From Planctomycetaceae bacterium (lineage in GTDB: Bacteria; Planctomycetota; Planctomycetia; Planctomycetales; Planctomycetaceae): a stretch of DNA of 64,000 nt. Position numbers and translations under genes: made by a program. The notes under the pieces were generated by a model that did not search any database, was not told where the DNA came from, and saw only the letters and a program-made list of their open reading frames with translations. Each line of letters opens with the position of its first letter. Within the stretch, counting starts at the first letter, position 1. The stretch spans positions 1-64,000 of the forward strand of contig JAHBXV010000003.1 in the NCBI GenBank assembly GCA_019636285.1. The letters run 5' to 3'. Positions 8,411-22,876 of this stretch are shown here, piece after piece.

Positions 8411-9454
8411 TCAGGCCCGACGCAGGCGGCACCATTTGTCCTGAAAGCCGGGGCGTTCTAGAACCTCGGGGTTAACCAGACCGTGCGGCCGACAGCCGCG
8501 AGCAATGTCCGCGAGGCTTTGGCAGGCCGTCCGGCCGATTTCCCGAAAGAGCTCGTCGGTCCAGGCGATCGCGTGGGGGGCCAGCAAGACGTTGTCGAGT
8601 TGGGAGAAGAGCGGAGGAGTTGGCGGCGGCTCGACGGCGAAGCAATCGAGCGCTGCTCCGGCGATGCGTCGTTCCGACAGGGCGTCATAAAGCGCTGACT
8701 CGTTGATGATTCCTCCGCGTGCGGTATTCAGCAGATAAGCGGTCGGCTGCATGAGCGCGAGTTCTCTTGCACCGATTAGGTTGCGCGTCTGGTCGTTGAG
8801 CGGGCAATGGAGCGAGACAAAATCGGATCCTGATAAGAGCTCGTCGAGCGAGACCGAACGTCCTCCTGCAGCTTCGATGACATTGCTTGGGACAAACGGG
8901 TCGAAGACCAGAGGTGGTTGCATGTCGAAACCGGACAGGAGTCGAACAACGGCCCGGCCGATGCCCCCGAACCCCACCAGGCCGAGTGTCCGTCCGCGCA
9001 ATTCCATCCCCATATAGCGGCTGCGTTCGTTCCAGCGGGACTCGCGGACCAACTGATCTTTGGCGCGAACATGGTGCGTCAGGGCCAGCATCCAGCCGAC
9101 AGTGGCTTCAGCGACGGAATGATCCACCGCTCCCGCCGTGATGCAAACCGCCACATCCGCGGCAGTACAGGCTGCGATGTCGACGCTGTCGTAGCCGACT
9201 CCGAACCTCGCGATCGCCAGCAGGTCGGCCGCGGATGACAGACTGCGGGCGGTGACACAGGGCGTGAGAACCAGGACGCCGTGAACAGCAGAAAGTTGTT
9301 CCGGGTCGATTTCGGGGCGATGCTCCGGGAATCGACTGACATCGATGCCAGGAACTGCGTCAAGACGATCGAGACCGACGTCAGCGTATTTCAGACGCCC
9401 TTCTTCATCGTAGAAATCGGCGGTCAGCGCGACTCGGAAGCGGGACGTTGTCAT
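8411..9454 (-). CDS. D-isomer-specific 2-hydroxyacid dehydrogenase
   Basis: 347 residues with the two-domain family fold. The NAD-binding motif is GFGGIGRAVV. The catalytic residues are present: Arg in NTARGG, Glu in CFAVEPPP, and His in LAPHAIAW. It reduces a 2-oxoacid or oxidises a D-2-hydroxyacid with NAD(P)H; the family (SerA-like, glyoxylate or hydroxypyruvate reductases) does not allow a precise substrate call. The ATG at 9454 overlaps the stop of the upstream aldolase-bicupin gene in a 4-nt ATGA, implying translational coupling. The longer frame upstream (26 codons) is the tail of that gene read in another frame. Confidence 0.92.
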   Translation of the reverse strand: MTTSRFRVALTADFYDEEGRLKYADVGLDRLDAVPGIDVSRFPEHRPEIDPEQLSAVHGVLVLTPCVTARSLSSAADLLAIARFGVGYDSVDIAACTAADVAVCITAGAVDHSVAEATVGWMLALTHHVRAKDQLVRESRWNERSRYMGMELRGRTLGLVGFGGIGRAVVRLLSGFDMQPPLVFDPFVPSNVIEAAGGRSVSLDELLSGSDFVSLHCPLNDQTRNLIGARELALMQPTAYLLNTARGGIINESALYDALSERRIAGAALDCFAVEPPPTPPLFSQLDNVLLAPHAIAWTDELFREIGRTACQSLADIARGCRPHGLVNPEVLERPGFQDKWCRLRRA

Positions 9455-11100
9455 CGCCAGGGGTTTCCTTCTTCCGTCGCACAGCGTTCGTCGACGATGA
9501 TTCGTTCCGGGACGGGACCAGCGTAGACCCACAGCATTTCCATGGTGGTGTCGGTCTCATTGATGAAGTAGTGGACGCGTCCGCGTGGTTGAAGAGCCGT
9601 GGCGCCGTCTCGCATCGCGTAGCGTCGGCCTTCGACGACGCATGTCGCATCGCCCGAGATGATGCAGATCGATTCGTCAAAGTCGTGAACATGGGCCGGC
9701 AGGCGGCCGCCCGGCGTGAACAAGCCATAACCGCCACTCATCTCGATCCCGGGAATCAGTTTCTCGTTGAAGAAGTCAATGAACTGAGTGTTCGGGCCGG
9801 CGGCGAAGCGAGGGGCGGTGGCGAAGCGATTGACTCGCTCGGCACCCGGGACGCCGGTCGAGTCGGCAGGCATCGCGCGCCGGGGAAAGAATTGAGTGAC
9901 GAGAGTCCGTACGGGGTTGTCGGAGGCCAGCGAGACTTGGAAGACGGCCGGTTCGCGCGACGAAAGATTGCGAGCCGTATGGGCCAGCCCCTTCGGGATT
10001 ACAATATTGTCCATACGGCCGAGAATGTACTTACGGCCTTCGACTTCGACGCTTGCCGAGCCACCCAACAGCGTGATCGATTCCGTGAAGGGATGCGTGT
10101 GGTAGGGAAGGGTGGCATCGGGGTCGAAACTCACCCAGCCGGTTGTGAGATCCTTCGCCTGATTGTGCTTGCCCACCAGGCACTCGAAGGTGACGCCGGG
10201 AGTCAATTCCACGCGCTGTCCTGATCCGACGGCGTTCATCACTTCCGGGCGGTCGGGACGCATTGATTCCGGAGGTCGCTCGAGCGGCGGGGGAGGGGAG
10301 GTGACAGGTTGCATCGCGGCTGTCATGCGCGGGCTTCGCTGTACCGCTTCCAGCGAGGACCGCAAAGAGCGGATCAATAACCCGGCGTCGATTCCCAGGC
10401 CGATCATCCGAAAGCCCTGTTGATTTCGGGCGCCGAGATCGGCTTCGCTCGATGCAATCAGGCCGCAATGTTTGCCAGCTTTACGGATGGCATCCTTCAT
10501 GCTCAGGATCTGGTCGGCGACGCCCGGCCCTTCCCATTGACCCCGGAATCCGGCCGTGGCTGAAAAGTCGGCGGGACCAAAGAAGAAGACTTCGACGCCA
10601 TCGACCTGGGTCATCAAGGGAACTTGCGGGACGGTGCGGATCGTCTCAATGATCGGAACGACGAGCACGTTTTCGTTGGCTTCGGCGGTGTGTTCAACGA
10701 AGCATTGGCCCCAGCAGGTCGCTCGCTCGGCTCCGATCCCGCGAATGCCTTCCGGGGAATAGCGGGCGTACGACACGGCCTGCCGAAGCTGCTGTGCCGA
10801 CTCAACCCACGGGATGACCACGCCATCGGCACCGATATCGAGGGCGCGTTTGATGAGACTCGCATCAAGCTGAGCAACTCGAACCAGCGCGACCGTGTCA
10901 CTGCGCACCGTCGCGCGCAGATGTTCGACGATTTCTTTCCAGTCGAGATGCCCGTGTTCGGCGTCGATCACCACCCAATCAACGCCCAGCGCAACAGCCA
11001 TCTCCGTGATACTGGGAGACTCCAGCGTCACCCACAGTCCGTACACCGGGGTGTTTGCCGCGAGCTTACGTCGAAAGGCCCGTAACGCAGAGGTCTTCAT
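9451..11100 (-). CDS. HpcH/HpaI aldolase fused to a bicupin
   Basis: 549 residues. Residues 1-270 are an HpcH/HpaI-family class II aldolase: YGLWVTLESPS, VIDAEHGHLDW, ALVRVAQLD (catalytic Arg), PIIETIRTV and FFGPADFSA (metal-ligand Glu and Asp). A Pro-rich linker (PPPPLERPPE) leads to two cupin domains, each with a full metal set: HTHPFTES with GLAHTA, and HVHDFDES with GRVHYF. The aldolase part should cleave or form a 4-hydroxy-2-oxoacid or 2-keto-3-deoxy sugar acid. The bicupin could act as an isomerase, dioxygenase or lactone/ketoacid handler; this is not resolvable. The fusion is unusual: these aldolases are normally stand-alone at about 255 residues. It is central in the five-gene cluster. 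Confidence 0.9.
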   Translation of the reverse strand: MKTSALRAFRRKLAANTPVYGLWVTLESPSITEMAVALGVDWVVIDAEHGHLDWKEIVEHLRATVRSDTVALVRVAQLDASLIKRALDIGADGVVIPWVESAQQLRQAVSYARYSPEGIRGIGAERATCWGQCFVEHTAEANENVLVVPIIETIRTVPQVPLMTQVDGVEVFFFGPADFSATAGFRGQWEGPGVADQILSMKDAIRKAGKHCGLIASSEADLGARNQQGFRMIGLGIDAGLLIRSLRSSLEAVQRSPRMTAAMQPVTSPPPPLERPPESMRPDRPEVMNAVGSGQRVELTPGVTFECLVGKHNQAKDLTTGWVSFDPDATLPYHTHPFTESITLLGGSASVEVEGRKYILGRMDNIVIPKGLAHTARNLSSREPAVFQVSLASDNPVRTLVTQFFPRRAMPADSTGVPGAERVNRFATAPRFAAGPNTQFIDFFNEKLIPGIEMSGGYGLFTPGGRLPAHVHDFDESICIISGDATCVVEGRRYAMRDGATALQPRGRVHYFINETDTTMEMLWVYAGPVPERIIVDERCATEEGNPWR

Positions 11101-13330: not shown

Positions 13331-14087
13331 GAATGGTCGTTCCGATTCCAGTAGGGCAGCAATTCCTGTACGACTTGACCATGCACGCAATTCGTGAACG
13401 TATTCCACCCGAACTCACCGGATGAACGTAGTCCTTCTGTTCGCCACTGGCAGCCATGTCCCAATTTCCTGTCCAGCCGATCGAGGGGCAGGTGCGTGTC
13501 GCGTAAGGCTGTTAGCGAGGAACAGAATTCTCGTAACTGGCAGGTTTGCGACCTTCGGCCCTTCGGGCGGCTCATCGGCCGCTTGGACCAGAGTCACCGC
13601 GACGCGGCGAGGCAGGACCATCTTCCCTGCGAATTTCAACGTGAGGTTTCCCATGAAAGACGGCCAAGAGAGTTTTCGATCTCTTTCTTGTACCAACCTT
13701 TGGACACCAAAGCGCGAGTCTGGCTGAGGAGTCGATAAACCGGATCTCGACGTTGCCATGTGACCTATTGACCGGTCCTCATGCCGAATCCGATTTGTGG
13801 GCAATAGACGCGCGGCAGCTCGAAAATGGAAACGGTATCAATCCCAGATCGCGAATGGGAGCCGATCCGCTCATCCCGACGCCGCCGGAAAACGGCGTCG
13901 AACCGGCAGACCGAGAGTCTTTCCTTCGGAGTGGCTCCCAGGCGACGACTGTCGCGGCTGTTCTCTCGAAACCGCTGCCGTCGTTCTTTACACATCGAAC
14001 GGTTCGTGGAACCATGTCATCCATGGGTTTGGATGAGTCGACCGCCCGCCAGTGACAGTCGCGCGGGCCGGACAAAGGATGACGACC
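13331..14087. other. Gene-free divergent intergenic region
   Basis: About 750 bases between the divergent catabolic cluster and the eutBC gene. Several 70-130-codon open frames occur on both strands but none has a family motif or convincing ribosome-binding site. I looked for a cobalamin riboswitch, since the downstream enzyme is B12-dependent. There is a GCCACTG (about 13440) but no associated conserved core, so none is called. Confidence 0.55.
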
Positions 14088-16379
14088 ATGGACCTCCGCC
14101 GTCGGCAGTTTCTTCAAAGTCTGTCGGCACTGACTCTCGTCGCGGCAACGCGGCACGGACGCCGGACATTCGCTGACGACGTTGCCGAAACCGCGGCGCG
14201 CGGGAAATCCAATGACGGACTCGCTGCTTATCTGAAGCGGGAGCATGGCGACTGGAACGAAGACGCCTACAAGGCTTTGCTGGGCGCGGCAAACGAGTTC
14301 AAGGAGGGAGACGCGCTGATCGGTATCGCCGCCCGAGACGAGGCCCATCGACAAATGGCGCGGCGGATTCTGTCGCGCACGACCCTTCACGAAATCGACG
14401 CGCATACTCTGCAGGACGATGAACTCGATCGGGCGCTCCGGGCCGGGATCGATCAATCAATTCAGAAACGAATTGCCAACTGGACGCTGGAGGAGCTGGC
14501 GGACTTTTTGCTCGAACAGCCGGAGTCCGTGATCCAGCCACTGTTGCCGGGATTGTCGAGCGATGTCATCGGCTGCGTCGTGAAACTGCTCGACAATCGG
14601 CAACTGACCGTCCTGGGAGCCAAGCTCTTTCACCCGCTTCCCGGCTCGCGGATTGGTGCCAAGGGATACCTGGGGGCGCGCATTCAGCCGAATTCGCCCA
14701 CTGACAATGTCGACGACATTCGCTGGCAGGTGTTCAACGGTTGGGCTTACGCCGTGGGCGATGTCGTTCTGGGGAATAACCCGGTTTCAAATGAACCGAA
14801 ATCGGTTCTGGCCATCGAGCGCTGCTTGAAAGAGGCGCTGGAGACGTTTGGCATTGCCGACGTGCTGCCGCATTGCGTGCTCGCGCACATCGATGTTCAA
14901 GCCGAAGTCGAAGCACTCGAACCGGGTTCGACCGCCTTGTGGTTTCAGAGTATCGCCGGTAGCGACGCGGCGAACGCGACCTTCGACGTCTCGCTCGCGA
15001 AGCTTCTCGATTATGCCGGTCGGCGATCCGGTCCGTTCGGCCTCTACTTTGAAACGGGCCAGGGGGCCGATTTCACCAATGGGCATGGGGCCGGATACGA
15101 TATGGTTCTGCACGAGTCGCGGAAGTATGGCCTCGCCCGGCTGTTGTCGCGAAAGGTGGCGGAAGCCATTGGCCCCGACCGTCGTCCGTGGGTTCACGTG
15201 AACGATGTCGCCGGCTTTATCGGCCCCGAGGTCTTCCGTACGCGGGAGCAACTCGTTCGCTGCTGCCTGGAAGACATTGCGATGGGAAAACTGCACGGGC
15301 TGTGCATCGGTCTGGACGTCTGCACGACGCTGCACATGGATGTGTCGCTGGACGACCTTGACTGGTGCCTCGACCAGTTGATACCGGCCTGCCCTGCCTA
15401 TCTGATGGCCTTGCCGACGAAGATCGACCCCATGCTGGGTTATCTGACGACCGGATTCCAGGACCACGTTCGGCTGCGCGAGAAATTTGGCTGCCGCGTC
15501 AATGATGCCATGTGGTCCTTTTTCCAGCGGTTGGGGGTGATCAACGAAGACGGATCTCCGACCCAGCACTTCGGCGATCCGTCCTGGATTTACCTGCACT
15601 ATCGTCGTCGAAAAGGAGACCAGCGCGACGAGGACGTGATTCTGGCCGAAGGTCGCGCTGAGATGGCTGCGGTCCGGCAACGAGGCGTCTTCCTGGCGGA
15701 GGGCCATGGGGAACGATCCCATGACGTCGAGCCGGCGTTGGCCTCCGAGATGCGCCGCGTCTACGTCGATGCCAAGCAAAGCCTGTGGTCGGAGCTGGAC
15801 GCCCCATTCTTTGACCACTATCCCGGAGCCACGCTGGTCGCCACGCGGTCGATCAATCGCGAAGATTACATCCTTCACCCCACGTCGGGCGAGCACCTCA
15901 ATGACGAGTCAGTGGCGGCAATCGCGCGGCTACGGGAGCGGCAGCGCGGCCTGGCTGACGTGCAGATCGTGCTGTCCGATGGGCTGAACGCCCTCGCCAT
16001 TCGCGACCGGGAGCAACTCGACCCGTTTCTGGCGGAGTTGAAGGATCTCTTGGCATCAAATGGATTCCACGCCAGCGATGAGTTAATCCTCATGCGGTCG
16101 GGGCGCGTTCGCGCGGGCTACGAGATTGGACGCAGATTATTCTCGGAGCTTCCCGGGAAGCGCGCGATGCTGCATGTCGTGGGAGAACGTCCGGGAACTG
16201 GCCATCGCACGTTCTCCGTCTACCAGACATGCGTCACGGGAAGTCTCTGGGGGCAACAGGGCGCGATCGATCATCATGTGACGAAGGTCGTGGCCGGTAT
16301 CGCCAACACGGCTCTGCGTCCGCGAACGGCTGCCGAAGCTGTCGCGCGCCTGCTTAACCAGCAGCGCGCCCAAGGGTAA
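14088..16379 (+). CDS. eutBC: Fused ethanolamine ammonia-lyase (EutB-EutC) with Tat-like leader
   Basis: 763 residues; EutB is normally about 455 and EutC about 295, in separate chains. MDLRRRQFLQSLSALTLVAA is a twin-arginine-type leader. Residues 35-505 are EutB: RIQPNSPTD (substrate-binding Arg and Gln), GNNPV (Asn), LYFETGQG (catalytic Glu) and KIDPML (Asp). Residues 555-763 are EutC: ATRSINREDYILHP, VQIVLSDGLNALAI, and the B12-pocket segment VVGERPGTG. The enzyme splits ethanolamine to acetaldehyde and ammonia using adenosylcobalamin. AAAGGA lies 8 nt before the chosen ATG; an in-frame ATG (14079) and GTG (14052) upstream are poorer. Sensor-kinase genes follow after 26 nt. Export of a B12 enzyme would be odd; the leader might be a membrane or vestigial signal. 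Confidence 0.9.
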   Translation: MDLRRRQFLQSLSALTLVAATRHGRRTFADDVAETAARGKSNDGLAAYLKREHGDWNEDAYKALLGAANEFKEGDALIGIAARDEAHRQMARRILSRTTLHEIDAHTLQDDELDRALRAGIDQSIQKRIANWTLEELADFLLEQPESVIQPLLPGLSSDVIGCVVKLLDNRQLTVLGAKLFHPLPGSRIGAKGYLGARIQPNSPTDNVDDIRWQVFNGWAYAVGDVVLGNNPVSNEPKSVLAIERCLKEALETFGIADVLPHCVLAHIDVQAEVEALEPGSTALWFQSIAGSDAANATFDVSLAKLLDYAGRRSGPFGLYFETGQGADFTNGHGAGYDMVLHESRKYGLARLLSRKVAEAIGPDRRPWVHVNDVAGFIGPEVFRTREQLVRCCLEDIAMGKLHGLCIGLDVCTTLHMDVSLDDLDWCLDQLIPACPAYLMALPTKIDPMLGYLTTGFQDHVRLREKFGCRVNDAMWSFFQRLGVINEDGSPTQHFGDPSWIYLHYRRRKGDQRDEDVILAEGRAEMAAVRQRGVFLAEGHGERSHDVEPALASEMRRVYVDAKQSLWSELDAPFFDHYPGATLVATRSINREDYILHPTSGEHLNDESVAAIARLRERQRGLADVQIVLSDGLNALAIRDREQLDPFLAELKDLLASNGFHASDELILMRSGRVRAGYEIGRRLFSELPGKRAMLHVVGERPGTGHRTFSVYQTCVTGSLWGQQGAIDHHVTKVVAGIANTALRPRTAAEAVARLLNQQRAQG

Positions 16380-16405
16380 TCCCATTTCCGCCGTTGTCAT
16401 CGACC

Positions 16406-18448
16406 ATGAATCCTCGAATCCTGCTGCCTCGCATCGAATCCCTTCGCGCCTACATTGGCTGGACGTCATCCGACGACGCGAGAATCGACCTATTGCGCGA
16501 GCGGCTGCTACCGAGCGTGGCGGACTTCGTTGCCGACTTTTACCACACCTTGCAGCGACATCCCGAGGCGGCGCGCGTGATTACCGGAGGCGTGGGCCAG
16601 CTCAACCGGCTTGGGGCCAGCCTCGAGAACTGGTTGCGCCAACTGCTATCTGGACGATACGACGAGCACTACTGGTCGCAGCGGTTGCAGGTGGGTTGGC
16701 GGCACGTCGAGATCGGCCTCGACCAGACGCTGACCAGCGCGGCCATGAGTCGTCTGCGGATGGGGATGCTCGCGGCGCTCGACACCCAGAGCGATCTGAC
16801 CGCGGACGAGCGGGCGGGACTGGCCGCCACTCTCAATCGCCTGCTGGACCTCGACCTGACGTTAATACAGGCGGCGTATTCGCTCGAATTTCAGGATCGG
16901 CTGCGTCCGCTGAACGAGGCTCGACTGACCCAGCAGCGAGGGCTGACGAGACTTGGGGAACGCGCTCTGGCCGGTCTCGACTGGGTCGCCTTGTGCGATT
17001 CGGCGGTCACGGTTGTCGATCAGGGCTTAAGTCCCGACCTGGTCGTGGTGCTCGAAGAATGCGAAACCACGCACTGCTGGACTGTCGTCAGCGCGACCGG
17101 CTGGTCCGGCCATAGACAATTGCCCGTCGAAGCCGGCAATGACTTGCTTCCAGCAGGCGCCGACGCCGCGGTGACCTTCATCGACCTGAGACGCACGACA
17201 CCAGCCTGGCTGCCGTTCTCGACGAACACAGCCAACTTCTCGGTGGCCTGGATTCACGGCCTGACGCCGATTGACGGCCGCCATCGTTTGCTTGTCATCG
17301 CTCGGAGGACTCCCGCGATGCTGGATCCTCTTGACGAGGCATTCCTGGCATCGGTCGGGCAGCTTCTTTCCAGCGCGCTCAAGAGACAGTTTCAGGAGCA
17401 GGCGCTGCGCGATCAGGCCGATCGGCTCCGGCGATTTCTCGACCAGCTCCCCGCCGCCGCGATTCTCGTGACCGACGGGGCTTTGATGATGAATCGCGCG
17501 ACCGAGCAGCTCCTGGATTGCCGTCGGGACGACCTGACTTCACTTACGGAGTGGCGTGCGCGCGGCGAACGCGTGGACGAGCAGAGCACGGTCGACTCGG
17601 CGTCCGGAGTTGTCCATTGGCGTGAACAATTCACGACGGCAGGCCACCAGATTCGACTCCTGGAAATCGCTGCCTTCGAAACCGATCACGATGCGGTCTG
17701 GTTGTTGACGGACCTGACCGAGAGCGAAGCCCGGCAACAACGCACTTTGCAGGCCGAAAGACTGGCGGCCATCGGACAGATGATTACGGGGTTGGCCCAC
17801 GAAAGTCGAAACGCGCTGCAGCGGATGCGGGCCTCGATGGATCGCCTGGAATTCGAAGTGAGCGAACACCCGGCCGCGCGGGAGCCGCTCATCCGTCTTG
17901 AGAAAGCACAGGACGATCTGGAAACATTGTTCGACGAGGTCCGGAATTACGCGGCCCCCTTGCTGCTGGAATGTATTCCGCTCAATTTGCAGGCTCTCTG
18001 GGAAGAGGCGTGGGAGAGCCTGGCCGAGTTGCACGCGCATCGCGATGCCACTCTGCATGTTTCCTGTGAATCGGGCTGTTGCCAAATCCAGGCCGACCGT
18101 TTTCGCCTGGTACAGGTGTTTCGGAATTTTCTCGAGAACTCTCTGGCGGCGTGTCGGGATCCCCTGACAGTGAGCGTGCGAGTCGTTCCCGGCAGTGAAT
18201 CATCCGTCCGGATGCACGTGGCCGATAATGGTCCTGGTCTGACCGAGACTGCACGACGGCGAATCTTTGAACCGTTCTTTACCACCAAAACGAAAGGCAC
18301 TGGCCTCGGCATGGCAATTGCTCATCGAATTGTGCTTGCCCATGGTGGAGAGATCGCGCTGGAACCCGGCGATGGTTCCGGCGCGCGGTTTGTCATAACC
18401 CTGCCACGAGACGGAAACGATGCATCCACTGCGGATCGCGCTCGCTGA
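16406..18448 (+). CDS. Globin-coupled sensor histidine kinase
   Basis: 680 residues. Residues 5-165 are a protoglobin-type sensor globin, with the heme proximal His at position 100 in GWRHVEIGLDQ. Then come a GAF-like region (about 190-330), a PAS-like region (about 345-450) and HisKA with phospho-acceptor His465 in LAHESRNAL. The ATPase domain shows FLENSLAA (N box), DNGPGL, FEPFFTTK and GTGLGMAI. It should bind heme and report O2, NO or CO by autophosphorylation. No transmembrane segment is visible, so it is cytoplasmic. A TTG four codons upstream was rejected for the ATG. It follows eutBC by 26 nt and overlaps the next receiver gene by 29 nt. Confidence 0.9.
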   Translation: MNPRILLPRIESLRAYIGWTSSDDARIDLLRERLLPSVADFVADFYHTLQRHPEAARVITGGVGQLNRLGASLENWLRQLLSGRYDEHYWSQRLQVGWRHVEIGLDQTLTSAAMSRLRMGMLAALDTQSDLTADERAGLAATLNRLLDLDLTLIQAAYSLEFQDRLRPLNEARLTQQRGLTRLGERALAGLDWVALCDSAVTVVDQGLSPDLVVVLEECETTHCWTVVSATGWSGHRQLPVEAGNDLLPAGADAAVTFIDLRRTTPAWLPFSTNTANFSVAWIHGLTPIDGRHRLLVIARRTPAMLDPLDEAFLASVGQLLSSALKRQFQEQALRDQADRLRRFLDQLPAAAILVTDGALMMNRATEQLLDCRRDDLTSLTEWRARGERVDEQSTVDSASGVVHWREQFTTAGHQIRLLEIAAFETDHDAVWLLTDLTESEARQQRTLQAERLAAIGQMITGLAHESRNALQRMRASMDRLEFEVSEHPAAREPLIRLEKAQDDLETLFDEVRNYAAPLLLECIPLNLQALWEEAWESLAELHAHRDATLHVSCESGCCQIQADRFRLVQVFRNFLENSLAACRDPLTVSVRVVPGSESSVRMHVADNGPGLTETARRRIFEPFFTTKTKGTGLGMAIAHRIVLAHGGEIALEPGDGSGARFVITLPRDGNDASTADRAR

Positions 18449-18791
18449 AGACGAACCGGAAATCCGCGACTATTTCCGCGAGATCCTCGAACGCTTGGGT
18501 CATTCGGTCGTGGTCAATGTGGATAACGGCCTGTCACTGGTTGAGGAATGCCGCCGCACGCCGCACGACCTGATTATTACGGACGTCCGGATGCCGCTCC
18601 TGGATGGCGATGCTGCCGTGCAGCAACTGTGGGAGACGTCGACGGTTCCGGCAATTCTCATTTCCGCCTATTCCAGCCCCGTCCTTTCCACGAACGGTCC
18701 AACGTGTTACAGCTATCTGAACAAACCGGTGCGCCGCGCGGACCTTGAGGCGGCGATCGAGCGTCTCGTTTCAACCTCCGACTCTGACTAG
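18420..18791 (+). CDS. Stand-alone response regulator receiver
   Basis: 123 residues, a receiver domain only: acidic pair AEDEPE, phospho-acceptor Asp55 in TDVRMP, and Lys in YLNKPVRR. There is no output domain, so it may be a phosphorelay shuttle or phosphate sink between the globin kinase and the NtrC-type regulator. It begins inside the kinase gene (29-nt overlap) and ends 4 nt before the regulator ATG, which implies strong translational coupling of all three. The switch Thr/Ser region reads ILISAYSS, a normal arrangement. Confidence 0.9.
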   Translation: MHPLRIALAEDEPEIRDYFREILERLGHSVVVNVDNGLSLVEECRRTPHDLIITDVRMPLLDGDAAVQQLWETSTVPAILISAYSSPVLSTNGPTCYSYLNKPVRRADLEAAIERLVSTSDSD

Positions 18792-18795
18792 CCTT

Positions 18796-20187
18796 ATGGA
18801 CAATCCGTCACCGACGGTGCCACGGTTGCTCCTCGTGGACGACGACCCGCTGCTGTCGGACGAGATGGCGCGGAACCTCGAACGTGTTGGCTATGGGGTG
18901 ACAGTCGCGCCGACCGCCGCCGAGGCTCGGGAGCAATTTCGCCGCCGCCAGTGGGATCTGGCTGTCATCGACCTCGTCCTGCAGGAGGAGTCGGGAATCG
19001 ACCTCTTGCAGCATGTTCGCGACGTCGCGCCGGAATGTGCCGTCGTGATGCTCTCCGGCCGGGGAAGCATTCCCGTCGCCGTGGATGCCATGAAGCGCGG
19101 GGCGGCCGACTTTTTGACCAAGCCGGTCCGCCTGGCGGAACTGAACGTGGTTTTGCAGCGGGCGTTACGTCACGCCCAGGTCGAACGCGAGAATCAACAC
19201 CTGAAGCAGCTTCTGCAGCGAGAGCGCTGGTCGGCTCGCCTCCTGGGCAGCAGCCGTCCCATGCAGGAATTGCGACGTTTGATTTCGCGTGTGGCGACGA
19301 GCCCGCAGCCCGTGCTGATTCTTGGAGAAAGCGGCACAGGTAAGGAATTGGTGGCTCGCGCGATTCACGATGCCAGCGACCGAGCTGATGCGCCATTCGT
19401 CCCCATCAATTGCGCCGCGCTTCCGGAAACTCTGCTGGAAAGCGAACTGTTTGGGTTCGAAAAAGGAGCCTTTACCGGCGCGACGGCCGCGAAGCCCGGC
19501 TTGTTTGAGGCCGCGGAAGGGGGAACGCTGTTTGTCGACGAATTGGGAGAACTGGCCTTGCCGCTGCAGGCCAAACTCCTGCGCGTGCTGGAAGATGGAT
19601 CGTTTCGCAGAGTTGGATCGATCAAGGAGCGCCGGGCAAAGGTCCGGGTCGTGGCAGCCACCAATCGTTCGCTCGCGGAAGAAGTGAAAGCCGGGCGCTT
19701 TCGCGACGACTTGTATTACCGCATCAATGTGCTTCCTTTGGCGTTGCCGCCGCTGCGCGAGCGGCTCGATGACCTCGAGGAATTGATTTCGTTTTTCCTC
19801 GGGCCCGATTGGACGCTCGCGGAAAATGTGTTGCCAGCGATTCAGAAATATCGCTGGCCTGGAAATATTCGCCAACTGCGTAATTCCCTCGAACGCGCTC
19901 GCGTGCTCGCGGACGACCATTTGATTGAACTGAAGAACTTTCCTCCCGAAGTCTTAGCGGGGGGAGATGTGCACGAGACCGCGGCAACTCTCGGGATCGA
20001 TCGAACTGGTGACTCCCCAATCGCGGATCTTGAAGGGCTCACTCGTCAACATGTCGAGCGGGTCTTTGAAGAGTGTCAGCGAAACAAGGCCCACGCTGCG
20101 AAACGGCTGGGGATCAGTCGCCGATCGCTTTACAGGCTGCTCGAAAAGTACGATATCCCGGGGCAGACGGCGACCACCGAGTCGTAG
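18796..20187 (+). CDS. NtrC-type sigma-54 response regulator
   Basis: 463 residues. Receiver domain with Asp59 in AVIDLVLQEE; then the AAA+ sigma-54 interaction domain with Walker A GESGTGKE from residue 177, the sigma-54 loop GAFTGA at 224-229, Walker B-like TLFVDELGE and the R-finger region YRINVLPLALPPLRER. A C-terminal Fis-type HTH ends AAKRLGISRRSLYRLLEKY. It activates sigma-54 promoters when phosphorylated, most likely by the globin-coupled kinase next to it. Targets are unknown; the downstream cbb3 operon or eutBC are candidates, but I could not find a -24/-12 element I trust. Confidence 0.94.
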   Translation: MDNPSPTVPRLLLVDDDPLLSDEMARNLERVGYGVTVAPTAAEAREQFRRRQWDLAVIDLVLQEESGIDLLQHVRDVAPECAVVMLSGRGSIPVAVDAMKRGAADFLTKPVRLAELNVVLQRALRHAQVERENQHLKQLLQRERWSARLLGSSRPMQELRRLISRVATSPQPVLILGESGTGKELVARAIHDASDRADAPFVPINCAALPETLLESELFGFEKGAFTGATAAKPGLFEAAEGGTLFVDELGELALPLQAKLLRVLEDGSFRRVGSIKERRAKVRVVAATNRSLAEEVKAGRFRDDLYYRINVLPLALPPLRERLDDLEELISFFLGPDWTLAENVLPAIQKYRWPGNIRQLRNSLERARVLADDHLIELKNFPPEVLAGGDVHETAATLGIDRTGDSPIADLEGLTRQHVERVFEECQRNKAHAAKRLGISRRSLYRLLEKYDIPGQTATTES

Positions 20188-20563
20188 TCGCTCATTTCTT
20201 GTTTCCGCCGCGAGAGTTCATTTCGCCACACGCACGCCATCGTGTGCGTGTTCGCCCACGATGGCGTGCGGTTCCGCACACCGCGCGCTTCGCACATGTC
20301 GGCGTGGTCTCCCCGGTCCTAAGTGGGAGTTCGCCAATTCGGGTTGCCCGATTCCACTTCCGGCAATTCGGTTCAGGAATTCTCAAATCCCGCGTGGATG
20401 AATTCTGGCAACGCCCCGCCAATTCCCACGGGTGAGGAAGTTTTTGCAACGTCGTCCGCCCACACGTGCTGCCAAGTCAATCCGGTACAGCGTTTGCCTC
20501 CCGATCGTCGTGGGAGGCGGATGACCTCGAATTTCAGACGTCGCCGCGTCCTCTTCTAATTTG
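20188..20563. other. Intergenic region before the cbb3 operon
   Basis: About 375 bases containing a strong hairpin-forming inverted repeat (annotated separately), followed by unremarkable sequence up to ccoNO. No FNR-type TTGAT-N4-ATCAA box was found. The short palindrome TTTGATGTCAAA overlaps the start codon of ccoNO (20560-20571) but is not an FNR consensus. Confidence 0.55.
20231..20270 (+). terminator. 14-bp perfect inverted repeat with 12-nt loop
   Basis: The arms CGCACGCCATCGTG (20231-20244) and CACGATGGCGTGCG (20257-20270) are exact reverse complements. They lie 44 nt after the NtrC-type regulator stop. A second, mutually exclusive pairing exists: CACGCAC (20229-20235) with GTGCGTG (20244-20250). 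No T-run follows, so it is not a classical intrinsic terminator. It may act as a terminator or attenuator between the regulator operon and ccoNO, or as a transcript-stabilising stem. Confidence 0.6.
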
Positions 20564-22876
20564 ATGTCAAAGGCCATCTGGATGAGCGTAGCCGTCGCGA
20601 CCGATGATCGTTCCCCTCTGACCGAAGGCCGCTCCACTTCGCACGGCTTCGAGGAATTTCGTTATGACGACGCGATCGTTCGTGCCTTTGCGACCGTGAC
20701 TCTGGTCTGGGGCCTGGTCGCCATGCTGGTGGGTCTGATTGTCGCCCATCAGTTGACGGTCCCCGCGCTGAATTTCGGACTCGACTTCACCGCGTTCGGG
20801 CGGTTGCGTCCGTTGCACACCAACGCGGCGATTTTCGCATTCGCCGGTAACGCCGTCTTCGCGGCGGTCTACTATTCGACGCAGCGGCTGTGCAAGGCAC
20901 GAATGTGGAGCGATGCCCTGAGTTGGCTTCATTTCTGGGGCTGGCAGTTGATTATCGTCCTAGCGGCCGTGACCCTGCCGCTAGGGATCACGCAGAGCAA
21001 GGAATACGCCGAACTGGAATGGCCCATCGATCTGTTGATCGCGGTGGTCTGGGTCGGTTTTTTCGGCGTCAACTTTTTCATGACGCTCGCAACCCGCCGC
21101 GAACGTCATCTGTACGTGGCGCTCTGGTTCTACATCGCGACGATCGTCACGGTCGCGCTGCTGCACGTGTTTAATAATCTGGTCGTGCCGGTCGGCCTGT
21201 TGAAGAGTTATCCCATCTATGCGGGAGTGCAGGATGCCTTCATGCAGTGGTGGTATGGCCACAACGCCGTGGCCTTTTTCCTGACCACTCCCTTTCTGGG
21301 ACTGATGTATTACTTCCTGCCGAAGGCCGCGAATCGGCCTGTGTATTCCTACCGTCTCAGCATCATCCACTTCTGGTCGATTGTCTTCATTTACATCTGG
21401 GCCGGTCCCCACCACCTGCACTACACCGCCATACCCGAATGGTGTTCCACGCTGGGAATGCTGTTTTCCGTGATGCTGTGGATGCCATCCTGGGGCGGCA
21501 TGATTAACGGCCTGTTGACGTTGCGGGGCGCCTGGCGGTCGGTCACCGCCGATCCGGTCCTCAAGTTCTTCGTCGTGGGGATCACGTTTTACGGGATGGC
21601 CACGTTCGAGGGGCCGTTACTTTCCGTGAAGTCGGTCAACGCCCTGTCGCACTATACGGACTGGACGATCGCCCACGTTCACAGCGGCGCGCTCGGCTGG
21701 AACGGGATGATGACCTTTGGGATGCTGTACTGGCTGTTGCCGAGGATTTACCAGACGAAGCTGTGGAGTCAGCGGCTCGCGGAATGGCATTTCTGGGTCG
21801 GCACCATCGGCATTCTGTTGTATATCGTCCCGATTTATGTGGCCGGGTTGACGCAGGGACTCATGTGGCGGGCCATCGATGCCCGCGGCCAGTTGATGTA
21901 TCCCGACTTCGTCGAAACGGTGCGCGTGCTCGCCCCGCTGTACTGGCTGCGGATTGGCGGCGGACTGCTGTTCTTCGTCGGCACCGGCATGCTGGGCGTC
22001 AACTTCCTGATGACCTGGCTGTCACGTCCGAAGACTTATGAAGACCCGGTCTATTCCGCTCCCGTGCTGAGTCGAGATTTCGTCGACCCGCCCATGCCGC
22101 AATCGAAGCTCGATGGCGTCCTGGACGTGGCGAAGAAGCTGGACGTCTGGGAAACCTTCCACTGGCATCGCCGTTGGGAACGACTGCCGATTCGATTTAC
22201 CGTCTGGGTGGCGATCGCCGTCGTGGTGGCGTCGCTGTTCGAGATGATTCCGACGTTCCTGATCCGCTCGAACGTCCCGACGATTGCTTCCGTGAAACCC
22301 TATACGCCACTTGAGTTGGCGGGGCGCGATCTTTATATCGCCAACGGCTGCTATAACTGCCATTCGCAAATGATTCGCCCCATCCTGGCGGAAACGAAGC
22401 GTTACGGCGAATTCTCCAAGCCGGGGGAATTCGTCTACGATCACCCATTCCAATGGGGATCGCGGCGGATTGGTCCCGACCTGGCCCGCGAAGGGGGGCG
22501 GCAATCGAGCCTGTGGCATGTTGTCCATTTCCGGAATCCGACGCAGTTGATTCCCGGATCGATCATGCCGGCGTATCCATCGTTTGAGCAGACGGAACTC
22601 AATTTCAAGTCGATTCAGGATCGCGTCAACGCGGCTGCATTCCTCGGTGCTCCTTACGGTGAAGAATTGACTCGAGCCGAGGAAATGGCGAAGGAACAAG
22701 CCGCCGAGATCGCCGCCGAGATCGAAAAGCAACAGGGGCCCTCCGGGCTAGGCGATAAGCAGGTGGTCGCTTTGGTTGCTTACCTCCAGCGCCTGGGAGT
22801 GGATTTGATGACTCCGGCGACACCGCCCGCGTCAGAGCAATCCGCGGTTACGCAGCCCCTGGCGATGGACCGCTGA
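20564..22876 (+). CDS. ccoNO: Cytochrome cbb3 oxidase, fused subunits I and II
   Basis: 770 residues. Residues 1-495 are CcoN, a 12-helix heme-copper oxidase subunit with heme- and copper-ligand segments PLHTNAAIF, YGHNAVAFF, GPHHLHYTA and AHVHSGALGWNG. After a linker (about 496-560) comes a transmembrane anchor, then CcoO with one c-type heme site CYNCH starting at Cys596, followed by QMIRP and FQWGSRRIGPDLAREGG. The complex reduces O2 with high affinity and pumps protons. The N-O fusion is a known variant and saves one gene. The start codon is uncertain: ATG at 20564 was used, another lies six codons later. It heads the cco operon. Confidence 0.94.
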   Translation: MSKAIWMSVAVATDDRSPLTEGRSTSHGFEEFRYDDAIVRAFATVTLVWGLVAMLVGLIVAHQLTVPALNFGLDFTAFGRLRPLHTNAAIFAFAGNAVFAAVYYSTQRLCKARMWSDALSWLHFWGWQLIIVLAAVTLPLGITQSKEYAELEWPIDLLIAVVWVGFFGVNFFMTLATRRERHLYVALWFYIATIVTVALLHVFNNLVVPVGLLKSYPIYAGVQDAFMQWWYGHNAVAFFLTTPFLGLMYYFLPKAANRPVYSYRLSIIHFWSIVFIYIWAGPHHLHYTAIPEWCSTLGMLFSVMLWMPSWGGMINGLLTLRGAWRSVTADPVLKFFVVGITFYGMATFEGPLLSVKSVNALSHYTDWTIAHVHSGALGWNGMMTFGMLYWLLPRIYQTKLWSQRLAEWHFWVGTIGILLYIVPIYVAGLTQGLMWRAIDARGQLMYPDFVETVRVLAPLYWLRIGGGLLFFVGTGMLGVNFLMTWLSRPKTYEDPVYSAPVLSRDFVDPPMPQSKLDGVLDVAKKLDVWETFHWHRRWERLPIRFTVWVAIAVVVASLFEMIPTFLIRSNVPTIASVKPYTPLELAGRDLYIANGCYNCHSQMIRPILAETKRYGEFSKPGEFVYDHPFQWGSRRIGPDLAREGGRQSSLWHVVHFRNPTQLIPGSIMPAYPSFEQTELNFKSIQDRVNAAAFLGAPYGEELTRAEEMAKEQAAEIAAEIEKQQGPSGLGDKQVVALVAYLQRLGVDLMTPATPPASEQSAVTQPLAMDR

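Follow-up and report, generated by a model that had tools for sequence, protein, structure and literature searches.

The window, by which we mean the whole analysed stretch of 64,000 nucleotides, holds an open reading frame (ORF) that joins EutB and EutC, the two parts of ethanolamine ammonia-lyase (EAL), in one chain behind a twin-arginine leader. It runs from ATG to stop at 14088-16379 on the forward strand and encodes 763 amino acids. The original prediction, made from the letters alone, had read this fusion correctly; the linker that it put at about 50 residues now measures roughly 50-65, from the end of EutB near residue 500 to the EutC core near residue 566. An alternative in-frame ATG at 14079 is possible, but it lacks a spaced ribosome-binding site. 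The features of the locus are:

14076..14079, + strand: probable ribosome-binding site AGGA, 8 nt 5' of ATG 14088, read from the sequence
14088..16379, + strand: Tat-leader single-chain ethanolamine ammonia-lyase, EutB-EutC fusion, 763 aa (Pfam/NCBIfam, PDB matches 2qez/3abo, AlphaFold, Foldseek)
14088..14207, + strand: twin-arginine leader and start of the variable spacer, residues 1-40 (alignments A1 and A2; low pLDDT)
14265..15587, + strand: EutB large-subunit domain, residues about 60-500 (Pfam, PDB matches, alignment)
15588..15782, + strand: linker of about 50-65 residues (about 501-565), mostly helical in the AlphaFold model (alignment, model)
15783..16376, + strand: EutC small-subunit domain, GRVR and GERPG motifs invariant (Pfam, alignment, Foldseek)

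Both domains exceed their Pfam cut-offs. With a query of 762 amino acids (the first Met was missing), EutB was matched at residues 59-492 (E=7.7e-129, 430.8 bits, cut-off 25) and EutC at residues 554-761 (E=9.6e-27, 94.3 bits, cut-off 25.8). At NCBIfam, the cut-off of the EutB subfamily was passed narrowly (557.2 vs 554), while EutC remained below that of its equivalog (71.7 vs 230 bits). The window genome (6.37 Mb, 113 contigs) has a single EutB and a single EutC domain, and both lie within this ORF.

The modelled fold of the window protein matches that of E. coli EAL. Searches with phmmer recovered Listeria EutB (2qez, 2e-67), E. coli EutB (3abo, 9.3e-63), and E. coli EutC (about 2e-5). The AlphaFold model has a mean pLDDT of 88.1 and a pTM of 0.88, and Foldseek placed it with 3abo_A (TM(target) 0.87) and EutC 3abo_D (0.75), followed by diol dehydratases. 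Judged by this model, the chain comprises the EutB TIM-barrel and the EutC fold; adenosylcobalamin (AdoCbl) binding, oligomer, and activity are inferred.

The residues of the active site are largely retained. Window residues R198, Q200, N231, E322, and D410 correspond to E. coli EutB R160, Q162, N193, E287, and D362, which, from EAL structures, we take to be the substrate-holding and catalytic residues. All five are invariant (62/62 aligned members), as are the GERPG motif and V207 of EutC. At the position of E. coli EutB Glu257, however, all 62 have Thr. This residue is not universal, because Listeria EutB (2qez) has Ala there. The claim that all visible active-site and B12 motifs are kept is thus upheld for the five substrate and catalytic residues, but not for E257.

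The window protein begins with a leader of the Tat type. Its first 21 residues are MDLRRRQFLQSLSALTLVAAT, a twin-arginine motif followed by an uncharged, mostly hydrophobic stretch up to T21. The start reads M-D-L-R-R-R-Q-F-L-Q before the uncharged run, and RHGRRTFADD comes next, beyond T21, with a possible cleavage site between TFA and DD near residue 32-35. Under a simplified rule, RRRQFLQSLSALTLVAAT satisfies the Tat criterion of a twin-arginine followed by a moderately hydrophobic uncharged region. The likeness of RRRQFLQ and its hydrophobic stretch to a Tat substrate, noted in the original prediction, is therefore confirmed, and the leader is conserved in relatives. After ATG 14088, the next in-frame starts are a TTG at codon 64 and an ATG at codon 90. 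Both are already inside the EutB domain, so the leader is necessarily translated in the intact enzyme. Lacking a lipobox, the window protein would be soluble or simply cleaved.

Tat-leader EAL is a widespread subfamily and not a peculiarity of the window genome. We pooled relatives from the best 80 of at least 457 GTDB loci, from genome-search loci, and from rhizobial plasmids, which gave 98 distinct sequences, 97 of them with a complete N-terminus. An RR-x-hydrophobic motif lies in the right interval in 94 of these 97, compared with 17% when the same upstream residues are shuffled. Had relatives' fused proteins started after the leader, the prediction of an exported enzyme would have been refuted; the opposite was found. 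Under a stricter rule, which required at least 12 consecutive uncharged residues in addition to RR-x-hydrophobic, 98/106 family rows qualified, compared with 1/16 scorable EutB proteins of the canonical type or the second clade and 48/658 ORFs from the neighbourhoods. Rows in the leader counts overlap between sources, which makes the set of 98 distinct sequences the fairer basis. Because the 80 GTDB loci were those with the highest scores, they may favour full-length, leader-bearing members. In the less selected genome-search sample, members above 50% identity carry the leader, except for two (L045 and L049).

Alignment of fused EutBC, proposed earlier as a check on the leader, also speaks for its conservation. 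R5, R6, and F8 are invariant in 20/20 fused relatives (alignment A1), where residues 9-60 are poorly conserved, and R5 and R6 are each at least 90% conserved among 62 members (alignment A2). The twin arginines are near-invariant while the remaining leader drifts, as in true Tat signals.

Leader-bearing relatives occur in Planctomycetota, Myxococcota (Myxococcus, Archangium), Rhizobiaceae (S. meliloti pSymA), and several metagenome-assembled genomes (MAGs). Isolates are represented among them by Myxococcus, Archangium, Sinorhizobium, and Tautonia; for some members, MAG labels such as Gammaproteobacteria and Bacteroidetes may be binning errors. The rhizobial plasmid members have leaders of the LTRRDLLLMAGATATLASYSHAAKSA type. 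In PLSDB, the S. meliloti pSymA copy (L138 9965-12313) is annotated as EutB only, which hides its EutC part and its Tat leader. Neither canonical EutB nor a second clade of EutBC fusions has the twin-arginine leader. A one-off or frameshifted gene can be rejected, as the architecture is conserved in about 100 genomes.

The Tat-EAL family is phylogenetically distinct from canonical EAL. In an EutB-domain tree of 113 rows, it forms one clade of 98 rows, and the branch to canonical EAL measures 3.83 changes per column. This was a quick tree with many weak branches. The second EutBC fusion (L018, L041, L044, and L142) groups with canonical EAL and has no leader. The two fusions therefore probably arose independently. 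Three members of the Tat-EAL family are leaderless, and all are nested within the leader-bearing clade: L045 and L049 together, and L113 alone. Thus, the leader was likely lost in these members, although the weak tree does not prove it. Evidently, the catalytic unit can be kept without a leader.

Some myxobacterial leaders end in a lipobox. The sequences SLLGC, SVLGC, ALASC, ALAAC, and LAAGC close the hydrophobic stretch in Myxococcus, Pyxidicoccus, Archangium, and one Anaeromyxobacter copy; in most of these, a Pro-rich spacer comes next, e.g., GKDSTVPRPPPGPPPEG. Lipobox sequences occupy three places in the EutB-domain tree. In planctomycetes, a few members also match the lipobox pattern, possibly by chance. 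Since a lipid anchor makes sense only after translocation, a lipobox with a Pro-rich tether implies that the enzyme leaves the cytoplasm.

The window EAL is not part of a eut operon. We found no eut genes among its neighbours, in agreement with the original prediction, and a genome search did not find EutA, the ATP-dependent reactivase, anywhere in the window genome. Among 57 relatives, EutA exceeded the cut-off in only three (G035, G008, and G023): a fused EAL without a leader is present in G035 and G023, while the EAL of G008 belongs to the second clade. EutA is absent from 12/13 other Tat-EAL genomes searched. The exception is G023, which also has the leaderless EAL; the assignment of this second copy rests solely on the extent and identity of its match. 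This distribution suggests that the exported form would travel without its reactivase, as expected where ATP is lacking.

The window genome encodes two TatC genes and one PduO-type adenosyltransferase. Its BMC shell genes are on other contigs (C46:24664-25355 and C1:62461-63027), and we saw no sign that they serve the Tat-leader EAL. In the alignment, the EutC N-terminus, including the microcompartment-targeting end, is replaced by the linker. We rejected the reading as a cytosolic EAL that belongs to a eut operon or a microcompartment, on two grounds: the absence of neighbouring eut genes and the location of BMC shell genes only on other contigs.

No conserved gene neighbour emerged from an all-against-all comparison of 885 ORFs around 82 loci and the window, and no neighbour in this comparison points to ethanolamine use. 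A B12 riboswitch was found neither in the window nor in 11 sampled related loci, a promoter/terminator scan gave no more than chance, and all EAL matches in a phage collection were of the canonical type and of low identity. In S. meliloti, the neighbouring genes (adhP, phosphoketolase, glycosyl transferase, and glucoamylase) look unrelated. About 25 nt 3' of the EAL stop in the window begins the gene of a histidine kinase whose N-terminal domain is a protoglobin (O2/heme sensor) (16403-18448, +), followed by a receiver protein (18420-18791) and an NtrC-type sigma-54 activator (18808-20187). Co-transcription of these genes with the EAL is possible, but related loci do not show a recurring partner of this kind. 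The window also contains a cbb3 oxidase with fused CcoN/FixN (COX1) and CcoO/FixO domains (20561-22876, +, 771 aa), and an HpcH/HpaI aldolase fused to two cupin domains (9454-11100, -, 549 aa).

Tat export of the window protein is strongly supported by its sequence, with its location inferred, and other readings of the leader have to be set against this. That translation begins downstream of the leader, which would make the leader a start-site or annotation artefact, deserves practically no credence. We found no point in its favour; no in-frame start lies between the leader and the EutB domain, the ribosome-binding site is correctly spaced for ATG 14088, and the leader is kept across phyla. 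We reject this artefact for the window gene, because a downstream start codon is absent before the EutB domain. The leader could also be translated without serving export, as a retained N-terminal extension or a membrane-association segment of an enzyme that stays in the cytoplasm or at the inner membrane face. Such a role would fit the three leaderless members that have kept the enzyme, and also the leaderless Acinetobacter EAL, which was seen mostly at the cell periphery and does not depend on EutA (PMC9426561). Yet within a segment that otherwise drifts, the twin arginines are conserved best, and the myxobacterial lipobox and Pro-rich tether are sensible only after translocation. Furthermore, the model leaves residues 1-40 outside the fold (pLDDT 43-48, mostly <50). 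We regard a leader without export function as quite improbable.

It is also possible, although unlikely, that the protein is exported by Tat but is not an EAL, being instead a cobalamin-binding or otherwise repurposed protein. The very long branch from canonical EAL, the EutC score far below the NCBIfam equivalog cut-off, the replacement of E. coli E257 by Thr in all members, and the absent eut context all leave room for such a change of function. Against it stands the invariance, in all 62 aligned members, of the five E. coli substrate and catalysis residues and of the core EutC GERPG motifs; a mere B12 binder would not need an ethanolamine pocket.

We consider it likely that the window protein is a Tat-exported, single-chain, reactivase-independent EAL that is loaded with B12 in the cytoplasm, with translocation, cofactor state, activity, and substrate all being inferred. 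Tat moves folded proteins. The single chain would fold and take up adenosylcobalamin in the cytoplasm, and the fusion of EutB to EutC would allow one leader to carry the whole catalytic unit through Tat. The leader would then be cleaved (planctomycetes, rhizobia) or lipidated (myxobacteria), as inferred from its sequence. A periplasmic or membrane-tethered enzyme would convert ethanolamine from phospholipids into acetaldehyde and ammonia. With ethanolamine released and cut outside the cytoplasm, presumably neither an ethanolamine transporter nor a Eut microcompartment would be needed.

We know of no adenosylcobalamin enzyme that has been shown to work in the periplasm. A point against a periplasmic EAL is that no ATP-dependent enzyme could exchange inactivated cofactor in that compartment. 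The three leaderless members, the lack of a gene neighbour pointing to ethanolamine use, and the missing B12 riboswitch in the window and the 11 sampled loci also count against the proposed reading. The exported EAL would have to act without EutA, as the Acinetobacter EAL does (PMC9426561). On balance, we lean towards the full sequence of events, in which AdoCbl is put into the single-chain EAL in the cytoplasm, the enzyme is exported by Tat, and ethanolamine is broken down in the periplasm or on a lipid tether without a reactivase. A whole branch of the EAL family thus probably works outside the cytoplasm, with both location and activity inferred.

In the textbook view, ethanolamine catabolism is cytosolic or takes place in a microcompartment, and EutA uses ATP to swap spent B12 for fresh cofactor. 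If the Tat-leader EAL is exported, it would be, to our knowledge, the first adenosylcobalamin radical enzyme known outside the cytoplasm. Coenzyme-B12 radical chemistry would then proceed without ATP or fresh adenosylcobalamin, and enzyme stability and cofactor supply become testable. Export would also give planctomycetes, predatory myxobacteria, and legume symbionts (S. meliloti pSymA) a means of using the head groups of phospholipids outside the cytoplasm. The fusion of EutB to EutC would find an explanation as well, in that a single leader carries a complete unit. With copies in S. meliloti and Myxococcus, the question of export comes within reach of genetically tractable laboratory organisms. 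We found no description of a Tat-leader EAL in the open PMC literature, judged mostly by titles and abstracts; subscription literature was not covered.

The EutBC of E. coli and Salmonella consists of two leaderless subunits, is encoded in a eut operon, is carried as cargo in the Eut microcompartment, and is reactivated by EutA. The window protein shares with it (3abo), and with Listeria EutB (2qez), the folds, the substrate and catalytic residues, and a predicted dependence on AdoCbl. In contrast to canonical EutBC, it is one chain, is predicted to be exported, has no eut genes, and is separated by a long branch. The second EutBC fusion clade likewise has EutB and EutC in one ORF; however, it is leaderless, has about 30% identity to the window protein, and in G035 (L018) has EutA 0.4 kb upstream. 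Myxobacterial members resemble Tat lipoproteins in having a twin-arginine leader that ends in a lipobox, which the window protein lacks. The EAL of Acinetobacter baumannii works in vivo without EutA and without a microcompartment, as proposed for the window protein, although it has two subunits, its EutC has no predicted N-terminal signal sequence, and it is not described as exported (PMC9426561). Reductive dehalogenases provide evidence that a folded cobalamin protein can pass Tat: RdhA (PceA) is a cobalamin enzyme exported folded via a twin-arginine leader, as we propose here (PMC6095959). This precedent would be a limited one, as reductive dehalogenases are not adenosylcobalamin radical enzymes; RdhA differs from the window protein in its unrelated fold, its Fe-S clusters, its non-adenosyl cobalamin, its reductive dehalogenation chemistry, and its membrane partner RdhB. 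Seen beside these systems, Tat-leader EAL is an enzyme already known, here in a new architecture and probably at a new location.
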